DNA of 64,000 bases from Rhodothermus profundi (lineage in GTDB: Bacteria > Bacteroidota > Rhodothermia > Rhodothermales > Rhodothermaceae). Positions 3,772-36,815 of the stretch are shown here, piece after piece. The stretch covers positions 126,307 through 190,306 of the forward strand of contig NZ_FRAU01000003.1 of NCBI RefSeq assembly GCF_900142415.1. The letters run 5' to 3'. The position numbers were made by a program, and so were the translations under genes. The notes under the pieces were generated by a model that searched no databases, was not told where the DNA came from, and saw nothing but the letters and a program-made list of their open reading frames with translations. Position 1 is the stretch's first letter. The number at the start of each line of letters is the position of its first letter.

Positions 3772-4668
3772 ATGAAAAAAGACTTCAAATCGACCTTCGG
3801 GGAAATCGACGCTGCAGAAGCCGAAAACATCCGCAGCGTCTTCAGAGCCCTGGGAGAGCGGGTGGACCACGCTCTGAGCAAACTCCGGATATACAAGCAG
3901 GAAGACAAAAGAGCTCAGCTCTTCGGCAGTATCGCAGGAGCTGCGGCTGCATTGCTAACCGGCGGACTGGGCCTTGGAGATTTGATCATCTATCCAGTAG
4001 TCTCTTCAGCTACCCGTGCAGCTCTAGGACCTGAAGAAACAGACATGAAACGCATCTATCACAAACTTTCTGAGGCTCTGGAAAAGCGCGCAGCCATGAT
4101 TGTGCATTTTCCGGATGTAGTATTGTCTGGAGAAGAAAGAGATGTAATTTTTAGAGATTTATTATTGCTATATTATGTAAAAAAGAAGCCTCGCAGTAAA
4201 TTACTTGAACAGATAGATAATGAATTAGCTCCAAAGAATATGAAGCTTCATATTTTATTGGATAAACTTATCCATTATATTGGAAATCCTGACGCTCGCG
4301 AAATAGACGATCTGGTGTTTTTCTGTCTGTTCTACTACGGACTAGTAAACCACAAACTTTATCTTTCGCTTCGGGAGGGGCGAGAAGAACTGGAGCTCCA
4401 GCTTGCCTGGGTACTGGGCCAGATGGATACGATGGTTACTATCTTCGAGGCGGTTGAAAAACAACTCATAGCCCGGCACGCGGCTACGCTGGAACTGCGC
4501 GAACCTTTTACGCCAGAGCAGGTGCGTCAGAACTATCGGCGCTTGATGAAAGCATGCCATCCCGACCGTTTTCCAGAAGCCACTGCGGAGATGAAACGAC
4601 AGCTTGAAGAAAAAACACGCCAGCTTAACGAGGCCTATCAGTTCTTTCGGGAACGATTAGGCTTTTAG
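3772..4668 (+). CDS. J-domain protein with a hydrophobic segment, CRISPR-island member
   Basis: A 298-residue protein of unknown function. Residues about 52-80 are glycine/alanine-rich and hydrophobic, possibly membrane-associated. Residues about 110-240 are helical and unrecognised. The last 50 residues form a DnaJ-like J domain with the diagnostic His-Pro-Asp at 263-265 (KACHPDRFPE) followed by the expected helix. J domains stimulate the ATPase of Hsp70 (DnaK) partners. The gene lies between cas2 and cas6 in the same orientation, with gaps of 126 and 70 bases. Bases about 4130-4310 are clearly AT-rich against their surroundings, hinting at a different origin for the middle. J-domain proteins are not standard cas products; the link to CRISPR is by position only. 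Confidence 0.7.
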   Translation: MKKDFKSTFGEIDAAEAENIRSVFRALGERVDHALSKLRIYKQEDKRAQLFGSIAGAAAALLTGGLGLGDLIIYPVVSSATRAALGPEETDMKRIYHKLSEALEKRAAMIVHFPDVVLSGEERDVIFRDLLLLYYVKKKPRSKLLEQIDNELAPKNMKLHILLDKLIHYIGNPDAREIDDLVFFCLFYYGLVNHKLYLSLREGREELELQLAWVLGQMDTMVTIFEAVEKQLIARHAATLELREPFTPEQVRQNYRRLMKACHPDRFPEATAEMKRQLEEKTRQLNEAYQFFRERLGF

Positions 4669-4738: not shown

Positions 4739-5725
4739 GTGACGCCTGCTATCCCTTCTGGGCTAGATCAGTTGTGCTGGTCGGTGATACAGTTCGACCT
4801 AGACGTATGCGCTCCCATTGATCTGGGCAGTATGCCGGCTGCCACGATACGCGGTGCACTGGGCGCTTCACTCCGCCGCCTGGTATGCATCACGCGGCTC
4901 TCTGACTGCACGGACTGTCCCTTTCGCTGGCCATGCATCTATGGATATCTGTTTGAAACGCCACCCCCTCCCGGTGGGCAGCAGTTACGCAAGCTTCAGA
5001 ATGTGCCTCGCCCCTATGTAGTGCGGCGCCCCAAACTCCATGAACGCCAGTTCGTCCCTGGGACGACACTTCAGATCGAGCTTCTATTGATTGGTCGAGC
5101 CCGCATGTATCTGCCCTATCTTATGCTGGCCCTGCAGCGGCTGGAGACGCAGGGAATCGGACGCGGGCGCCGCGAGGGCACCGGGCGTTTTCGTCTGGTT
5201 TTGGCGCGGGCGCTGCGTCCAGATGGAACGTATGATGTCGTCTATGACCGCACATGCCGACAGGTGCTGGCCGAGGTGCCAGCGTGGCGGCCGGCTGATC
5301 TGCTTTCCTCCGGATACCCCGGAGAGGTTATGCGTTTGCGTACCAATACACCGCTCCGCTTAAAGGCAGCAGGACACCTGGTGCGGAAGCTTACGTTCCG
5401 TATTCTGCTTCGCTCTATTCTCAGTCGGCTGTCCAGCCTGGCCGCCTTTCATGCAGAGACAACGCTGCAGCTTGACTTTGCCAGTCTGTTGCGGCAGGCC
5501 GAAGCGGTCCGCACCCGAGAAGACCGACTGCAATGGTTCGATGGCCTGCAGCGCTACTCCAAGCGACAGCGCACCACGATGCGGCTGGGTGGACTGGTTG
5601 GTGAGATCATCTTCGAAGGCATCTCTCCAGAGCTCTGGGCCTGGCTGACGCTGGGCGCTGCGCTGCACGTGGGGCATGGAGCTGTAATGGGGCTAGGGCA
5701 CTACGATATCGAACCCGTATCATAG
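4739..5725 (+). CDS. cas6: CRISPR pre-crRNA endoribonuclease Cas6
   Basis: A 328-residue RAMP protein. Near residues 50-66 it has the cysteine pattern C-x6-C-x2-C-x5-C found in a subset of Cas6 proteins (the PF10040-type family). The C terminus carries the glycine-rich Cas6 signature (HVGHGAVMGLGHYDI). Cas6 cuts the repeats of pre-crRNA to give mature guides, mainly for type I and type III systems. The start is GTG at 4739, because no better ATG lies upstream of the conserved N-terminal strand. The last six bases overlap the convergent CARF-HEPN gene. Its presence implies a transcribed CRISPR array elsewhere. Confidence 0.85.
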   Translation: MTPAIPSGLDQLCWSVIQFDLDVCAPIDLGSMPAATIRGALGASLRRLVCITRLSDCTDCPFRWPCIYGYLFETPPPPGGQQLRKLQNVPRPYVVRRPKLHERQFVPGTTLQIELLLIGRARMYLPYLMLALQRLETQGIGRGRREGTGRFRLVLARALRPDGTYDVVYDRTCRQVLAEVPAWRPADLLSSGYPGEVMRLRTNTPLRLKAAGHLVRKLTFRILLRSILSRLSSLAAFHAETTLQLDFASLLRQAEAVRTREDRLQWFDGLQRYSKRQRTTMRLGGLVGEIIFEGISPELWAWLTLGAALHVGHGAVMGLGHYDIEPVS

Positions 5726-7054
5726 GGGACGTATCTGGGGAAGACGCTTCAGCGCTGGATCGCCCAGATGCTGTTCGAGAACGGCCAGCACGGCAGAAAG
5801 TTGGTCTCGCAGCTCTTCCGGACGAAGTGGCGGTTCGTTTTTTCCAGTCCTTGCATGCGCTATGCGATTCCGTAACTGACGTAGTGAACGAACGCACGCC
5901 ACCAAGTCGTGCAAATCGGGTAACAACTGTTTCTTTACTGAGGGATGGAGCAAAGCGTCTACGAGTCGTTGCTGGTTGCGGAGCCCTCCTTTGTTAGCTA
6001 CTCTGCTACTTGGGTCTACCTGATAGATCTCGCCGAGGCGAGAGACGACCGCCTCATAAGCCGCAAGGACGGCTAGTCCAAGCCGATCGTGGCGTAGATG
6101 ACTGCGGGCAATTTGCAACATGGCCTCCCAGTCGCTCCGAGCATTGGCCAGTTGGTCCGGCGTGTACCTCAAGGTGGGGAGGATCATTCGGAAGGGGAGG
6201 GGAAGAGCTTCAGCCTGTTGTTCAAGATGTGCTAATCTTTGCGATAACCGTCTGCTTCGATGACGGACGTCTGACAGCAGGTTAAACTGCAGCTGATAAG
6301 CATAATCCCGTAATTCCTGGGCCAGACCAGGATTAATCTGATTTTTCATTAAACGAAGCAATTCAGAGATTTCCTGATTCTCGGCAAACGTGCGAGCAGC
6401 CAGACTCCACTGCATGAGCTCCAGCAGAGGGGACAGATCGAAAATTGGAGCACGGTCTGCGAAGTAGCCTCGCAGTTCATGTGCTCCATAGAAGAGCGAT
6501 CCAAGGCGGATGCCTGGGCGGGTTATACTCAGAAAAAACATGGCCAGTAGTAGAAAGAACGGCTGATAGCGCAGGCCATGCGTGATGTCGAGAGAAAGGA
6601 GACCCTCGGGAATAGAAAGCTCGGTCAATGCCCGAAAGGTCTGCCACAGCTCTTCATGAGAACGACCCACAGGGATGAGGTGCAACGAACAGGGATGTTC
6701 GAGAAATGCTTCAACCCGATGTTGCACCTGAGGGAGCAGGTTACGTACTGCCTCTTCGTCACGCTGTTCGATGTATTCGTATAGCTTACAGTAAAGTTCA
6801 TCGTCCCCGTCTGTGGGGGCTGGTGTGGCGTGTAGAAACAGGGTATCCCACATAGCATCGACGGTCCCCAGAATAAAAACCTTCCGGAAGCGCCTGGGAT
6901 GGAGTTTCAGGATAGCTTCGCCCACAAAAGGTGTCTCGACGGTTTTCTCAGGGCGGTTGGCCATAAAGTACACGGTGCGACGATAGTTGCGCGCCTGTGC
7001 GTCTGTCCGATAGCGATCACCTGAGCCCAGAAGTAAAAACAGCGTTTCTTTCAT
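5720..7054 (-). CDS. CARF-HEPN ribonuclease (Csx1/Csx2-type, DxTHG), copy 1
   Basis: A 444-residue protein. The N-terminal CARF region starts with a Rossmann-like strand and GSGDRYR, and carries the DxTHG signature as DITHG at 156-160. The C-terminal HEPN domain has the R-x4-H ribonuclease motif RNRIAH at 395-400. In type III CRISPR systems such proteins are activated when cyclic oligoadenylate, made by Cas10 on target recognition, binds the CARF domain; the HEPN domain then degrades RNA nonspecifically. It is the last gene of the minus-strand accessory run, 61 bases after the ring-nuclease-like gene. No Cas10 is in the window, so the source of its activator is unknown. Confidence 0.88.
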   Translation of the reverse strand: MKETLFLLLGSGDRYRTDAQARNYRRTVYFMANRPEKTVETPFVGEAILKLHPRRFRKVFILGTVDAMWDTLFLHATPAPTDGDDELYCKLYEYIEQRDEEAVRNLLPQVQHRVEAFLEHPCSLHLIPVGRSHEELWQTFRALTELSIPEGLLSLDITHGLRYQPFFLLLAMFFLSITRPGIRLGSLFYGAHELRGYFADRAPIFDLSPLLELMQWSLAARTFAENQEISELLRLMKNQINPGLAQELRDYAYQLQFNLLSDVRHRSRRLSQRLAHLEQQAEALPLPFRMILPTLRYTPDQLANARSDWEAMLQIARSHLRHDRLGLAVLAAYEAVVSRLGEIYQVDPSSRVANKGGLRNQQRLVDALLHPSVKKQLLPDLHDLVACVRSLRQLRNRIAHARTGKNEPPLRPEELRDQLSAVLAVLEQHLGDPALKRLPQIRPL

Positions 7055-7115
7055 TTTTCCGTGATGGAAATGTACTGAAAGGGCCAGTCCATATATTCAA
7101 GGGACTGTGTTGTCG

Positions 7116-7766
7116 TCACCTGCAGGGCAGGCGGCGATGAAGACGGGCGAGCTCTTCCAGTTGCTGCCGAAATCGAACCAAGTGTAAATCGACTCGCTCG
7201 ATCCGCACTTCCTGCCGGCCTCCCGAACGTGGATAGAAAAACGTGAGGTCTTCAAGCACGGACTGCTCTGGATGGACCAATACGTGGATACTCTCGTCCT
7301 GCGGGCGGGCATACAGGGAAAATGCAGTGAGCAGGTGTGCACTCATGGTCTTACGGCCGCCTGCAATAGAGGCCACCACACGAGGCGCCTCGGGATCGGC
7401 GCAGAGCCGGGCTACCACCTGGTAACACAGCTCGGCATAACGCCGATCGTCGTCCCAGGTGCGGATGTCGTCCAGCTTGAGCCCATTCCCGCGCAGTGGG
7501 ACATGAATAAACCAGGTGGGCGCCTCCGGGCTCTCTGGTTCCAACTGAAGCACCTCTCGGCAGAAACGCTGCCATACCGAAAAGCCTTCCTCATCAGGTG
7601 TTTCAAAGAGCCGGTGGCGCAAAATCCGCTCACCGGTAAGGGTTGTGACCACGTGAATCTCGTCTGGAATAGCCGGTTGGGGGTGTTCGATGGCCAGCGT
7701 CCAGATGGTTTCGGTGAGGACGGCCGGCGACACACCCAGCGCAATTAACAGGTTGTAGCGTTCCAT
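7116..7766 (-). CDS. CRISPR ring-nuclease-like protein, NE0113 family
   Basis: A 216-residue protein with the two hallmarks of the Cas_NE0113 family: an N-terminal GVSPAVLTETIWTL (11-24) and SIAGGRKTMS (133-142). This CARF-type fold occurs at the N terminus of some Csm6 proteins and as stand-alone proteins in type III loci, where members bind or cleave cyclic oligoadenylates and so switch off the signal. Here there is no HEPN domain, which fits an off-switch rather than an effector. It lies between two unrecognised small genes and CARF-HEPN copy 1, all on the same strand. Family membership is fairly sure; the enzymatic role is inference. Confidence 0.8.
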   Translation of the reverse strand: MERYNLLIALGVSPAVLTETIWTLAIEHPQPAIPDEIHVVTTLTGERILRHRLFETPDEEGFSVWQRFCREVLQLEPESPEAPTWFIHVPLRGNGLKLDDIRTWDDDRRYAELCYQVVARLCADPEAPRVVASIAGGRKTMSAHLLTAFSLYARPQDESIHVLVHPEQSVLEDLTFFYPRSGGRQEVRIERVDLHLVRFRQQLEELARLHRRLPCR

Positions 7767-7780
7767 CGACCTTCAGCCGT

Positions 7781-8173
7781 TCAGTTTCGTTGCAGGGATA
7801 GCAGCTTCTGAACCACTTCTTCGGGCGAGAGCCCGGTCGACGTCAGCGTGCCCTGTAGCTCATACGGAAAGGCTGGCGCCCAGCGCAGCGTTCCCTGCCG
7901 CACGCCCAGACGCAGCAGGCGCGCTTCTAGAGCGTCCAGCCACCGCGCCAGCCGCCCTCGCTGCAGCGACACCGAGTTGAACTGCCGCACAAAGCAAGCC
8001 TTCACCTGTCCGGTACGCTCATTGCGCCAGATCTGGTCAGCCTGGCGTTGCAGGAAAGCACGCACAGTTGGAGTCATCTGATGTTCCAGGATCTCCACCT
8101 GAATCTCCACCGCAACTGACAGAGGCCCCTGGTAACTGGCCTCGTACATGTGCACAAAAACTTTGTTATTCAT
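7781..8173 (-). CDS. Uncharacterised protein in the CRISPR accessory operon
   Basis: A 130-residue protein I do not recognise. It begins MNNKVFVHMYEAS, has alternating strand-like and helical segments and a basic middle, and contains no obvious membrane segment, signal peptide or metal motif. It lies 14 bases from the ring-nuclease-like gene and 23 bases from the 121-residue gene upstream, so the three are probably co-transcribed. Codon use looks like that of the neighbours. It may be a subunit or regulator linked to cyclic-oligoadenylate signalling, by position only. Confidence 0.6.
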   Translation of the reverse strand: MNNKVFVHMYEASYQGPLSVAVEIQVEILEHQMTPTVRAFLQRQADQIWRNERTGQVKACFVRQFNSVSLQRGRLARWLDALEARLLRLGVRQGTLRWAPAFPYELQGTLTSTGLSPEEVVQKLLSLQRN

Positions 8174-8196
8174 GGCATCTGTGGTTGAATTTTTAT

Positions 8197-8562
8197 TCAG
8201 GTAAGGTCAGAAGCAAACTGATCAATCAATGGATTCAGGGGTGATTTTTCCAGCAGCCTTCCAATGGGGCGGCTTCCGGCCCGCGGCATTACAGACTGAA
8301 TATGGAGGCCTATCCGATAATCCGACAGATGACGCATAACTGTCTGGTGCAGCAGACAGATGAGCCCGCGCAGCGCCCCGCGGCTTTCTTCGGCCGGGTC
8401 GACCTCAACCTGGAGTCCGACCATCAGAGCAGGCTCCTCTGGAAGCAACATCACATCCGCTACCAGCGTGTCGTTCAGCGCCTGGGCCAGCGTTTCCAAG
8501 TCGGCCCGAGGGGTAGCGGGTGCAGCCTGGATCAGGGCGGTCATCAGGAAGCTGGTGCGCAT
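8197..8562 (-). CDS. Uncharacterised protein at the head of a CRISPR accessory sub-operon
   Basis: A 121-residue protein without recognised domains. It begins MRTSFLMTALIQ, is alanine- and leucine-rich, mostly predicted soluble, and mildly acidic in the middle. It is the first gene after a probable promoter (8573-8639) that shares two sequence boxes with the promoter of the DUF4236/CARF-HEPN-2 unit. The next gene starts 23 bases after its stop. No function can be assigned; position suggests a role with the CARF proteins. Confidence 0.55.
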   Translation of the reverse strand: MRTSFLMTALIQAAPATPRADLETLAQALNDTLVADVMLLPEEPALMVGLQVEVDPAEESRGALRGLICLLHQTVMRHLSDYRIGLHIQSVMPRAGSRPIGRLLEKSPLNPLIDQFASDLT

Positions 8563-8572
8563 GGAACCTGTA

Positions 8573-8639
8573 CCGGTTTGAGGGTGTGTCGGTCAGGATA
8601 CGTCCCAACTTCCCGAAAAGACTCCTTTCGGAAATTCCG
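8573..8639 (-). promoter_or_regulatory. Putative promoter/operator A of the CRISPR accessory genes
   Basis: On the minus strand, the palindrome CGGAATTTCCG (arms CGGAA/TTCCG; plus-strand 8629-8639, 14-base identity from 8626) lies 63 bases before the ATG at 8562. The box TCAAACCGG (8573-8581) lies just before the start codon. The same two elements occur in the same order before the DUF4236 gene. The segment is inside or just beyond the 3' end of the 132-residue gene upstream, so it would be an internal promoter. Conserved layout is direct observation; promoter activity is inference. Confidence 0.5.
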
Positions 8640-8645
8640 GTCATC

Positions 8646-9044
8646 TTATGAAGATTGGAGACAGACAGGATACTTCCGAAAGCGTACAAATCGAAAATAG
8701 GCAATTTTTCTGCCACGTGTGGGATCTTCTTCAACGATGCGGTGCGAGGTGGCTGCCAGGCAGAGGATCCCCTTCTGCTGCAGTAACCGCACCAGCGTGC
8801 AGGTGAAGGTCTGCTCGCCCATGACGTGCACCGCGTGAGGGCCCGGGCCCGCTTCCCGAAGCCGGTCTGTGATTCGACGGGCATAGCGCTGCGCCAGCGC
8901 TGCCACCTGCCGATCGTCCCATTCTGGCGGGATCGCCGGAAAGGGCCAGTCTTCAATCGGACCATAGGGCGCCGCAGCGGCGCGCTGCGGCGCTCCCCAG
9001 GAGGTCGCAGGATGATTACTCAGATTGATCAACATCGCGTTCAA
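8646..9044 (-). CDS. Small CRISPR-associated protein (LINLSNHP / VHVMGE family)
   Basis: A 132-residue protein with an N-terminal strand MLINLSNHP, a central VHVMGEQTFTCTLV and a C-terminal FRFVRFRKY. I recall this pattern from small proteins beside type III CRISPR loci in Bacteroidota, but cannot name the family with certainty. The size and Rossmann-like strand pattern would suit a minimal CARF or ring-nuclease fold. Its first 29 bases overlap the end of CARF-HEPN copy 2, so translation is probably coupled; a second in-frame ATG at 9035 gives a start closer to the conserved strand. The 3' end abuts the internal promoter A. Confidence 0.65.
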   Translation of the reverse strand: MNAMLINLSNHPATSWGAPQRAAAAPYGPIEDWPFPAIPPEWDDRQVAALAQRYARRITDRLREAGPGPHAVHVMGEQTFTCTLVRLLQQKGILCLAATSHRIVEEDPTRGRKIAYFRFVRFRKYPVCLQSS

Positions 9045-10206
9045 TCCATTCCGCTGCCGATTCTGCCAGCTCGCATGCTCTTCTAAAAAGAGCGTCAGTT
9101 TGCAGCGGCTGGGCTCTCATGCCAGCATGGTTGATATCGTTGCGCACGTTGGTCAGCTCGTTCCAGAGCTTGGCCAGCGCGTGGCGAGCGCCCGTGTACG
9201 CACGACGCGTTTCCGGGTCTTGCAGGCCCTTGGCCAGCTGGTTAAGCGCTTCTTCTGCTTTTTCTCGCTCATGCAGCGGGTCATATCCTGCATCCAGCGC
9301 CTGCCGGGTCACCATGGCTTCGCGGGCTACGGTGATGGCCTGCTGCACCAGGCCGAAATTCAGGAGGAGCCGGATTAAAGCCGCCTGCGCCTGAAGCCCT
9401 TCGTACGAATAGGGGTGGGGGTGCTGAAGCGGCTGCACCCGCCGGGCTGTCTGGTCCAGTAATAACCCGAACGGTCGCAATCTCGGGATATTCAGAATAT
9501 CTTCCCGGACCTGCTGCAGCGCCTGGGGCAGCTGACGGGCATGCTGCTGAAGGACTTCTGTCAGTCGCACCAGACTCATTCCCCTTGAAAATCCTTCCAG
9601 CCATCCGGCCGTGCGCTGCGCATGCCGGGCCTTTGTGTCGGTAGACTCCACATAGGTCAGGCGGTGGATCTCCCGTAGCAGCTGCGCCAGCTCGCCTGCC
9701 TGGCCATAACGAATGAACAGATGCGCTGCAACGCTCCATTCGATCAGCCTCAGAAAGGGGGTCAGGTCAAAGACCGGTGCTTCATCTGCATGATTTCTGG
9801 CGTCATATGCTCCATAAACAATGCGCTCAATTTCTACGTTTCGTGTGACGCGTAGATAATACAGCGCCGCCAGAGACAGCATAGGCTGCGTTCGAAGACC
9901 ATGGGTAACATCAACAATCAATATATCCTCATCTGCAATGTGATGCGTCAGCACATTGAAAATTTCCCAGAGCTCTTCTTCATTTTTACCTTCAGGAATA
10001 TAAACAGGTTCATATTCAATAATCTGTTTTATCCAACATCCATGTTTTTCTTCTGCTTCTCTGGTCATAAAAATAAGGCATCGTTCTGGACGAAAGAAGC
10101 GATAGACGGCTTCCTGGAAGTAGCGTGTCGTGTGGCGCTGATCCTCCCAGCAGTAGGTGCAGCATTGATAGTTTCCGATCCCCAGAAATGAAATCTGCAC
10201 GCGCAT
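9016..10206 (-). CDS. CARF-HEPN ribonuclease (Csx1/Csx2-type, DxTHG), copy 2
   Basis: A 396-residue protein when started at the ATG at 10206; the frame is open further upstream, but the extension is low-complexity and overlaps the DUF4236 gene, so I reject it. The start MRVQISFLGIGNY matches the first strand of Csx2-type CARF domains. DVTHG (99-103) is the DxTHG signature, and RNDINH (355-360) is the HEPN R-x4-H motif. The role is the same as for copy 1: RNA degradation on binding cyclic oligoadenylate. The two copies share architecture but differ greatly in sequence, so they may sense different ring sizes. The 5' third (about 9900-10200) is AT-rich compared with the rest. Confidence 0.88.
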   Translation of the reverse strand: MRVQISFLGIGNYQCCTYCWEDQRHTTRYFQEAVYRFFRPERCLIFMTREAEEKHGCWIKQIIEYEPVYIPEGKNEEELWEIFNVLTHHIADEDILIVDVTHGLRTQPMLSLAALYYLRVTRNVEIERIVYGAYDARNHADEAPVFDLTPFLRLIEWSVAAHLFIRYGQAGELAQLLREIHRLTYVESTDTKARHAQRTAGWLEGFSRGMSLVRLTEVLQQHARQLPQALQQVREDILNIPRLRPFGLLLDQTARRVQPLQHPHPYSYEGLQAQAALIRLLLNFGLVQQAITVAREAMVTRQALDAGYDPLHEREKAEEALNQLAKGLQDPETRRAYTGARHALAKLWNELTNVRNDINHAGMRAQPLQTDALFRRACELAESAAEWIERDVDQSE

Positions 10207-10255
10207 GGCAGTAGATGAACTCGTGAGCAATTTTACCTTAGTAATAATCCGCAGC

Positions 10256-10450
10256 TTATGCGTTTTTACGTCGTCTGGGCGAGCGGCGCTCCAGACGCCA
10301 GCGGCCACGACCCAGCCGAATATAGGGGCGGCCGCCGGGGGTGCGGCCGATGCGCAGGCCCCGAGCACCAATGCTAATGCCAAGACCCCGATGGCTGATT
10401 GTCAGACGAATCGGGCCCAGACAAAATGTCTTATAAAGCTGGAACGGCAT
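10256..10450 (-). CDS. DUF4236 family small protein
   Basis: A 64-residue protein with the DUF4236 pattern: an N-terminal LGPIRLTIS, then GLGISIGARGLRIGR and a glycine-rich GRPYIRLGRGR segment with a basic tail. Members are common in bacteria and phages and have no established function. It lies 49 bases before CARF-HEPN copy 2 on the same strand and is preceded by promoter B. It therefore probably heads that transcript, which is an unusual place for this family. Confidence 0.7.
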   Translation of the reverse strand: MPFQLYKTFCLGPIRLTISHRGLGISIGARGLRIGRTPGGRPYIRLGRGRWRLERRSPRRRKNA

Positions 10451-10457
10451 GGCAGAT

Positions 10458-10528
10458 CCGGTTTGACAACTAAAGACGGTGCGTTATAACTCTGGGCGTT
10501 GTCGCAAAGATGCTTTTCGGAAATTCCG
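10458..10528 (-). promoter_or_regulatory. Putative promoter/operator B of the CRISPR accessory genes
   Basis: On the minus strand, CGGAATTTCCG (plus-strand 10518-10528; 14-base identity with site A from 10515) lies 64 bases before the ATG at 10450, and TCAAACCGG (10458-10466) lies just before the start codon. Between them a TATAAC sequence could serve as a -10 element. Site A has the same arrangement with TATCCT at nearly the same offset. This suggests one regulator controls both units. Confidence 0.5.
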
Positions 10529-10648
10529 AGAGGAAGTAAGCATTGTGGCAGTCTGTTCTAAGCAGGCGTTTAGAATGCTTTTTAGGCCTATTTTCTACTT
10601 GCGATAATTCCACTTATCATAAATAAGATCCTTTCAGACCACTTCTGG

Positions 10649-34262: not shown

Positions 34263-36815
34263 ATGGAAGGAAACTTCTCCAACAGAGTCCGGGACGTTAT
34301 TTCCTACAGTCGGGAAGAAGCAATCCGACTGGGACACGATTACATCGGAACGGAACATCTGTTGCTCGGCATCATCCGGGAAGGCGAAGGCATCGCTGTA
34401 CAGATCCTTCGCAACCTTGGATGTGACCTGTTGAAACTGAAAAAAGCCATTGAAGATGCAGTCCGGAGCACCAGCGGCCCAACTACAGTTGTAGGGAATC
34501 TTCCCCTGACGAAGCAGGCCGAGAAGGTGTTGAAGATAACATACCTCGAAGCCAAACTATACAAGAGCGATGTAATCGGCACCGAACACTTGCTGCTAAG
34601 CCTGCTGCGCGATGAGGAAAACATTGCCGCCCAGATTCTGCAGCAGGGTTTCTCTATTACCTATGATGCTGTCCGCGCCGAGCTGGATGCGATTTTGAGT
34701 GGGAAGGCGTCGGCCCGGAGCAGCAGTGGGAGCGGAAGCGGCAGTCGCTTTTCATCCAGATACGGTAGAGAGTACACAAAGATGGAAAAGAGCAAAACAC
34801 CCGTGCTGGACAATTTCGGCCGCGACCTGACCAAGCTGGCCGAAGAGGGGAAGCTGGATCCTGTCATCGGACGGGATCGGGAGATTGAGCGGGTTGCCCA
34901 GGTGCTCAGCCGCCGGAAGAAAAACAATCCGGTGCTGATTGGAGACCCGGGCGTAGGAAAGACCGCCATCGTGGAGGGCCTGGCTATGCGGATTGTGCAA
35001 CGCAAGGTCAGCCGGGTGCTCTACGACAAACGAATCGTCTCTCTCGACCTGGCGGCGCTTGTAGCAGGTACAAAGTACCGCGGCCAGTTCGAGGAGCGCA
35101 TGAAGGCGGTTATGAATGAGCTCGAAAAGAATCCCGACGTTATTCTTTTCATCGACGAGCTGCACACCATCGTCGGAGCCGGTGGCGCTTCGGGCTCGCT
35201 TGACGCCTCCAACATGTTCAAACCGGCGCTGGCGCGCGGTGAAATTCAGTGCATCGGCGCGACCACCCTGGACGAATACCGTCAGTACATTGAAAAAGAC
35301 GGCGCGCTGGATCGCCGCTTCCAGAAGATTATGGTCGACCCCTCCACTCCGGAGGAGACCATCGAAATTCTGCAGAAGATTAAAGATCGCTACGAGGAAC
35401 ACCATAACGTCCGGTACACGGACGAGGCGATTGAGCTGTGCGTCAAACTGTCGGAGCGGTACATCACCGATCGCTTCCTTCCAGATAAGGCCATTGATGT
35501 TATGGATGAAGCCGGCGCCCGGGTGCACTTGAAAAACATCCGGGTTCCGAAAGAAATCGTCGAGCTGGAAGAAGAAATTGAGCGGGTACGTGAGGAAAAG
35601 AACCGCGTCGTTAAAAGCCAACGCTTCGAAGAGGCAGCGCGGCTGCGCGACCGGGAAAAGAAGTTGCTCGAAGAGCTGGAAGAGGCCAAGCGCGCCTGGG
35701 AAGAGCGTATTCAGCATGAAGTCCATGAGGTCACGGCCCAGGATATCGCAGAGGTCGTGGCGATGATGACGGGAATCCCCGTCGACAAAATCACCGAACC
35801 TGAGCAGAAAAAGCTCCTCCGCATGGAGGAGGCGCTCAAAGGACGCGTCATCGGTCAGGACGAAGCGATCTCCAAGCTGGCCCGGGCGATCCGGCGGACG
35901 CGCGCCGGCCTCAAAGATCCGAAACGCCCCATTGGTTCTTTCATTTTCCTGGGACCGACCGGCGTCGGCAAAACTGAGCTGGCCAAAGCCCTGACGGAGT
36001 ACCTGTTCGATTCCGAGGATGCCCTCATCCGCATTGACATGAGCGAGTACATGGAGAAATTCTCCGTCAGTCGCCTGATCGGTGCTCCGCCAGGCTATGT
36101 GGGCTACGAAGAGGGCGGCCAGCTTACCGAGAAGGTGCGGCGCAAGCCTTATTCGGTCGTGCTGCTGGATGAAATTGAGAAGGCCCATCCGGATGTGTTC
36201 AACATCCTACTGCAGGTGCTGGACGACGGAATCCTGACTGATGGACTGGGCCGCCGCGTCGACTTCCGGAATACAATCATCATTATGACCTCTAACATCG
36301 GCGCCCGCGAAATTAAGAACCTGGGGAAGGGCATCGGCTTTACGCAGAGCGAACAGCCCTTTAACTATCAGGCGATGAAGTCTACGGTTGAAGATGCGCT
36401 CAAGCGCGTCTTCAACCCCGAGTTTTTGAACCGAATCGACGATGTGATCGTCTTCCAACCGCTGGAGAAACAGCATATTTACCAGATCATCGACCTGATG
36501 GTCTCCGACCTGCTCAAGCGGGCAGGAGACCTTGGCATCCAGGTTGAGTTCACCCAGGCTGCCAAGGACTTCCTGGTCGAAAAAGGCTATGATCCGCAGT
36601 ACGGTGCCCGGCCGTTGCGGCGAGCTATCCAGAAGTACGTAGAAGATCCACTGGCCGAGGCTATCCTGAGCAACGAAGTCAAAGAAGGCGATCTGGTTGT
36701 AATCCACTATGACGAGTCCGTCAAACCAGGCGAACTGATTTTTGAGGCGCGGCCAGCCGCCGAAGCAACACCCCCTGAAAAACCCGAAACGGCTGAAGAA
36801 GGGGCCTCGGAATAG
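34263..36815 (+). CDS. clpC: ATP-dependent Clp protease ATP-binding subunit ClpC
   Basis: An 850-residue HSP100 protein. It has an N-terminal Clp-N repeat domain (about 4-140), a first AAA+ domain with Walker [10 protein letters not shown] near residue 227, a UVR-type coiled coil (around 445-470, [15 protein letters not shown]), and a second AAA+ domain with GPTGVGKTE near residue 564 and a C-terminal D2-small domain. The UVR segment identifies ClpC rather than ClpA or ClpB. It unfolds substrates for ClpP and in many bacteria acts with adaptors in protein quality control; clpP is not nearby. It is flanked by terminators on both sides, so it is monocistronic. Confidence 0.96.

Follow-up and report, generated by a model that had tools for sequence, protein, structure and literature searches.

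Transcriptional control of type III ancillary effectors is poorly known in bacteria, and regulation by CARF-HTH proteins has been studied mainly in Sulfolobales. The 18-base CRISPR-associated promoter palindrome (CAPPa) of these archaea, with the consensus TCCCN8GGGA, is putatively bound by Csa3a; specific binding to the predicted palindrome was, however, not reproduced in vitro, where Csa3a bound CAPPa nonspecifically and independently of cA4 (PMC8699464). Csa3b activates the cmr genes in Sulfolobus islandicus and gives footprints on promoters (PMC7480081). A bacterial type III system, CalpL/CalpT/CalpS, has been described as converting cA4 into a transcriptional response via a SAVED-Lon protease, an anti-sigma factor and a sigma factor (PMC11229360). 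The bacterial protein RtcR, a transcriptional activator that controls RNA repair genes, has a CARF-like ligand domain (PMC7790460).

Here we describe a palindromic element at two promoters, P1 and P2, of a single ancillary effector cluster in the thermophilic genus Rhodothermus. As judged from its sequence conservation, the element probably represents a conserved operator common to both promoters (probability roughly 0.85). No bacterial operator of such a kind was found in the literature searched, reviews included, which is not proof of novelty. The analysis started from a 64-kb stretch of DNA (the window, to which coordinates refer unless a contig or locus is named), and the comparison set comprised seven genomes, namely this genome (G000) and those of six congeneric Rhodothermus (G001-G006). 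The relevant features of the window, in the direction of transcription, are as follows.

10509-10529, minus strand: P1 element TCGGAATTTCCGAAAAGCATC, the palindrome plus the directional AAAAGCATC flank, 5' of the DUF4236 gene; orthologous sites in G002, G004 and G003
10483-10488, minus strand: candidate -10 hexamer of P1, TATAAC, predicted from sequence; no recognisable -35, and no match in the promoter scan
10458-10466, minus strand: second box TCAAACCGG at P1, not conserved in relatives
10256-10450, minus strand: DUF4236 gene, 64 aa (Pfam PF14020, E 1.3e-8); orthologues in G002 and G004
9016-10206, minus strand: CARF-HEPN effector of the Csx1/TM1812 family, 396 aa (TIGR02221, 108.8 bits, cut-off 76.25; PADLOC CARF_HEPN, 4e-110)
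8646-9044, minus strand: csx20-like ring nuclease candidate, 132 aa (PADLOC Csx20, 9e-49; NCBIfam Csx20 family NF040559, 30 bits, below the cut-off of 70)
8620-8640, minus strand: P2 element CCGGAATTTCCGAAAGGAGTC, between csx20 and the 121-aa gene (profile built from P1 sites only, E 0.0007 in the intergenic region)
8595-8600, minus strand: candidate -10 hexamer of P2, TATCCT, predicted from sequence
8573-8581, minus strand: second box TCAAACCGG at P2; in G002 and G004 only a relative with 2 mismatches
8197-8562, minus strand: g121, 121 aa, first gene after P2; orthologues with 31-33% identity at the same place in G002 and G004, no match in Pfam, NCBIfam or PADLOC
7781-8173, minus strand: g130, 130 aa, family unassigned (sequence comparison)
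7116-7766, minus strand: NE0113-family CARF gene, 216 aa, shorter than in congeners (TIGR02584, 139.7 bits, cut-off 80.65)
5720-7054, minus strand: second CARF-HEPN effector of the Csx1/TM1812 family, 444 aa (TIGR02221, 96 bits, cut-off 76.25)

Both CARF-HEPN effectors thus score above the TIGR02221 cut-off for Csx1/TM1812 proteins, and degradation of cA4 by Csx20 proteins has been demonstrated (PMC12409355). The original prediction had two sub-operons, each with a CARF-HEPN gene at its end or its beginning; this is roughly right, P1 being followed by DUF4236-CARF/HEPN-csx20 and P2 by g121-g130-NE0113-CARF/HEPN. The ancillary cluster is also present in G002 and G004.

Several further observations concern the gene content of the cluster. 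In three species, the genes g121 and g130 (7781-8562) stay adjacent in the effector operon although their identity is only 31-43%. The NE0113 gene (7055-7766) encodes 216 aa here vs 431 aa in G002; since the sequence past its stop codon can still be matched to the final codons of the longer genes in G002 and G006, a middle portion of the C-terminal part was apparently deleted. In G002, genes of 355, 595 and 272 aa lie between the DUF4236 and CARF-HEPN genes (locus L029, 3122-6822). The gap at this position in the window (10206-10256) is too short for any of them, and the 355-aa gene was not found by a search of this genome. The CARF-HEPN gene of G002 is interrupted by a 382-aa open reading frame resembling TnpB/OrfB-type transposon proteins (L029, 7725-8873). 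Between cas2 and cas6, the window encodes a 298-aa protein with a C-terminal DnaJ domain (3772-4668) that is kept in G002, G004 and G006.

The 14-base palindrome TTTCGGAAATTCCG is found in the window at 8626-8639 and 10515-10528, starting 63 and 64 bases before the ATG codons at 8562 and 10450, as had been predicted. With up to 2 mismatches, the only further match in 64 kb was the reverse reading of the site at 10515-10528. A second box, CCGGTTTGA (TCAAACCGG on the minus strand), lies near each ATG at 8573-8581 and 10458-10466, and a third exact copy is present at 35218-35226. On the minus strand, the order at both sites is palindrome, -10-like hexamer (TATCCT or TATAAC), TCAAACCGG and ATG, again in line with the prediction; the equal spacing it had claimed does not hold, since the gap between the boxes is 44 bases in one copy vs 48 in the other and hence similar but unequal. 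Among random pairs of 100-mers from this window, at least 14 identical bases in common occur with a frequency of 7e-5, and a common collinear 9-mer (offset ≤4) with a frequency of 0.004. The product of about 3e-7 per pair, multiplied by about 1,500 pairs of gene starts (our own estimate), gives an expectation of about 4e-4. The assertion that the box pair is hard to obtain by chance is thus borne out.

The exact two-box pattern, which was to be looked for upstream of orthologues, occurs twice in this genome and in none of the six congeners. The palindrome itself is part of a longer element, TCGGAAWTTCCGAAAAGCATC, located upstream of DUF4236 in three species (G000, G002 and G004). The P1 sequences are TCGGAAATTCGGAAAAGCATC in G002, TCGGAAATTCTGGAAAGCATC in G004 and TCGGAATTTCCGAAAAGCATC in this genome, with the dyad centre 73, 72 and 73 bases, respectively, from the DUF4236 ATG. 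The conserved partner of the palindrome is the AAAAGCATC flank, which had been overlooked. A search of the seven genomes with the P1 21-mer (≤3 mismatches) gave six matches, the reversed control three. The six matches comprise the three known P1 sites, one site in G003 with 2 mismatches, and two sites with 3 mismatches in coding sequence. The G003 site, TTTTTGGAAATTCCAAAAAGCATC, precedes a gene orthologous to the one immediately after DUF4236 in G002. Its two differences, C-to-T and G-to-A, fall in opposite arms and restore the symmetry, yielding a perfect 19-base dyad; the spacing of 19-20 bases to a -10-like hexamer is not retained in G003. No recognisable element was found on the G006 contigs examined; this genome is no clean counter-example because DUF4236, g121 and the 355-aa gene are missing there too.

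That the repeat is a functionless product of chance might be argued from the palindrome core alone, which with 2 mismatches occurs at background level in the seven genomes. Such a reading would have to accommodate the fixed position, the conservation in four species, the recovery of the G003 site by search, and the statistics from random pairs and profiles; it is highly improbable and already largely refuted by conservation.

For P2, a weight matrix was built from the four P1 sites only and scanned over the intergenic region between csx20 and g121. It retrieved CCGGAATTTCCGAAAGGAGTC in this genome (E 0.0007) and GTCGAAATTCCGATTTGCATC in both G002 and G004 (E 0.003 each), located 57, 53 and 54 bases, respectively, from the ATG. 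A diverged copy was thereby detected in every genome that has the P2 promoter. In G002 and G004, one base of the dyad has been lost so that it is kept in part only, and the two sites count as one observation because the genomes are closely related. A gapped-alignment test of P2 in G002 and G004 gave a weak result, the ungapped intergenic profile a stronger one. The seven promoters align on GAAWTTC plus a downstream G..TC. The second box TCAAACCGG is absent from the orthologous promoters, where the best match has 3 mismatches at P1 and 2 at P2, and was therefore rejected as a conserved element. Absence of the boxes in close relatives had been named in advance as evidence against the proposal, and for the second box this is what was found. 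Of the common regulator proposed for the two promoters, the part that rests on the palindrome is well supported, since congeners retain it at a constant distance from the start codons; the part that rests on the second box is not.

The near-identity of P1 and P2 in this genome could also reflect a promoter segment that was copied by duplication or gene conversion instead of independent selection of the two sites. Here P2 resembles P1, with which it has 14 identical bases and the 9-mer in common, more closely than it resembles its own orthologues, and the absence of the exact pair from the six congeners points in the same direction. Against this, the P2 orthologues in G002 and G004 carry a recognisable version of the element at nearly equal distance, and the boxes are separated by largely dissimilar sequence, so that there is no long copied tract. 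We consider copying improbable; moreover, it would preserve and not exclude a functional site.

The specificity of the element was assessed by a pattern search of the whole genome. The 11-base core has eight genomic copies, comprising the two promoters, five copies in open reading frames and one intergenic copy upstream of a plsY-like gene that is without the AAAAGCATC flank. The bare 17-base dyad with 2 mismatches gave counts close to the control, i.e. near background. The flank is therefore needed for specificity. Much of the information resides in it, and it gives the element a direction, which is what one expects of a site placed with respect to a promoter. Strong intergenic matches occur nowhere in the seven genomes but in this CRISPR cluster; the remaining matches examined are coding or flankless. 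The P1 element adjoins a CRISPR array leader in G002 and G004; it was rejected as a leader motif, as other leaders are without it.

At both promoters, the dyad centre is located 34-35 bases upstream of the -10-like hexamer, around -46 from the predicted transcription starts near 10476 and 8588, which precede the ATG codons by about 26 bases. A sigma-70 promoter with -35 and -10 boxes at a spacing of 16-18 bases was found at neither site; the promoter scan revealed no TTGACA-like -35 at P1 or P2, leaving the -10-like hexamer only. The CRISPR leaders of G002 and G004, inspected by eye, have a clear TTGACA-N17-TATGCT directed toward the array. A weak -35 with a dyad just upstream suits an activator, although the factor at the dyad may instead act as a repressor. 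If the repeat acted instead in the RNA, as terminator, attenuator or structured leader, the short hairpin that the dyad could form and the position of P2 after the csx20 stop codon would find an explanation. Folding of five promoters was, however, unremarkable (z -0.4 to -2.0), with no structure common to them and no terminator-like site found at the boxes, and the CRISPR leader adjoining P1 in G002 and G004 reads away from DUF4236. A DNA site is preferred in view of the folding results, and a role at the RNA level appears very unlikely.

All CRISPR leaders of the genus that were examined contain a different inverted repeat, TGTGACA-N6-TGTCAC(A), about 100-135 bases from the last repeat (13 copies in five of the seven genomes, zero in the reversed control; loci L029 at about 2650-2720, L034, L047-L053, L055 and L056, and C3:124970-124988 in this genome). 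It is possibly an integration or regulator site. From C3:125071, downstream of this genome's own leader motif at C3:124970, a stretch of N, either masked sequence or an assembly gap, extends to the window edge (L004, 8765-10000) and probably corresponds to the CRISPR array.

About 20 kb from the sites, the same genome encodes a CARF-HTH protein, Cas10 and Csm2-Csm5. The cas10 reading frame contains YAGGDD (GGDD cyclase motif), and together with Csm2 (1.4e-28), RAMP proteins and Csm4_C this identifies a type III-A system. The CARF-HTH gene (contig C3:113600-114520) lies directly upstream of cas10 and ahead of csm2-csm5. Its product in this genome combines an N-terminal NE0113-like CARF domain (PF09623, E 4e-29) with a C-terminal HTH_38 domain (PF13936, 30.2 bits, cut-off 27), the broad architecture of CARF-HTH regulators. 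The G002 orthologue scored 24 bits against the Csa3 family TIGR01884 (cut-off 60.2). In G004, an apparent interruption of the regulator by a stop codon was dismissed as merely an earlier natural end. A wider contig scan for distant CARF-HTH relatives retrieved one Rhodothermus MAG only. A second CRISPR locus of this genome, with an array, cas1/cas2 and a CARF-HEPN paralogue (~34-37% identity), is located on contig C6 (1-15000, L035) and has a counterpart in G006.

The CARF-HTH protein is the sole CRISPR-encoded DNA-binding candidate recognised in the loci examined, and in G002 and G004 its gene adjoins the array next to P1. All four genomes that have the element encode it, as does G006, and G001 and G005 have neither the protein nor the element; this co-occurrence over seven genomes is suggestive only. 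We give about even odds that this protein is the regulator acting at the P1/P2 operator.

The site could equally be recognised by a host regulator whose gene lies elsewhere; the operator would then be shared but serve a host-wide factor (stress or global) with no relation to cyclic oligoadenylate signalling. The link between the CARF-HTH protein and the site is putative, the regions upstream of the CARF-HTH gene and of the csm operon yielded no copy of the element, and the core copy upstream of the plsY-like gene is intergenic. A host-wide factor fits less well with strong intergenic matches restricted, across the genus, to the CRISPR cluster, and with an element that occurs solely in genomes with the CARF-HTH regulator. 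On balance, we regard it as unlikely, though less so than copying of a promoter segment.

In the explanation we prefer, P1 and P2 belong to a single type III-A ancillary cluster and would both be controlled by one transcription factor that binds the dyad GGAAWTTCC with its AAAAGCATC flank; the element, its conservation and its fixed position are observed. P1 would drive DUF4236, the CARF-HEPN RNase and csx20, and P2 would drive g121, g130, the NE0113 CARF protein and the second CARF-HEPN RNase. As the most likely factor we regard the CARF-HTH protein whose gene immediately precedes cas10. Its gene and domains are likewise observed; binding of this protein to the site, its ligand and activation over repression are what we infer. 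Expression of the effectors and of the csx20 ring-nuclease candidate would then be coupled to the cyclic oligoadenylate formed by Cas10. The resulting feed-forward circuit, in which Cas10-derived cyclic oligoadenylate would act through the CARF-HTH protein of the same operon on the two promoters for the CARF-HEPN RNases and the ring-nuclease candidate, is a tentative proposal from sequence data to which we assign somewhat less than even odds. If true, the alarm molecule would set how active its effectors are as well as how much of them is made. The question lends itself to a direct test, as the putative operator is conserved and precisely placed and there is a single candidate for the regulator, encoded directly upstream of cas10.

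As compared with known systems, the CalpL/CalpT/CalpS route resembles the proposed one in that a bacterial type III system turns cA4 into a transcriptional response; it differs in proceeding via a protease and a sigma factor, with no palindromic operator described in the part of the account considered (PMC11229360). RtcR is likewise a bacterial activator with a CARF-like ligand domain, but controls RNA repair genes and not CRISPR effectors. Csa3b shares with the candidate the role of a CARF-HTH regulator of type III genes; it is, however, archaeal, belongs to the Csa3 family, for which the candidate is under the cut-off, and targets the interference complex and adaptation genes. The closest precedent for the element itself is, by analogy, CAPPa. 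Both are palindromes that lie just ahead of a basal promoter, are kept within an order or genus, and have been associated with a CARF-HTH protein. CAPPa is archaeal and located at adaptation genes and array leaders, whereas the element described here is found at ancillary effector operons; the sites TCGGAATTTCCGA and CCGGAATTTCCGA do not conform to TCCCN8GGGA and instead follow GGAAWTTCC plus AAAAGCATC. A further property of CAPPa, that it is largely confined to CRISPR-associated promoters, is shared by the Rhodothermus element.
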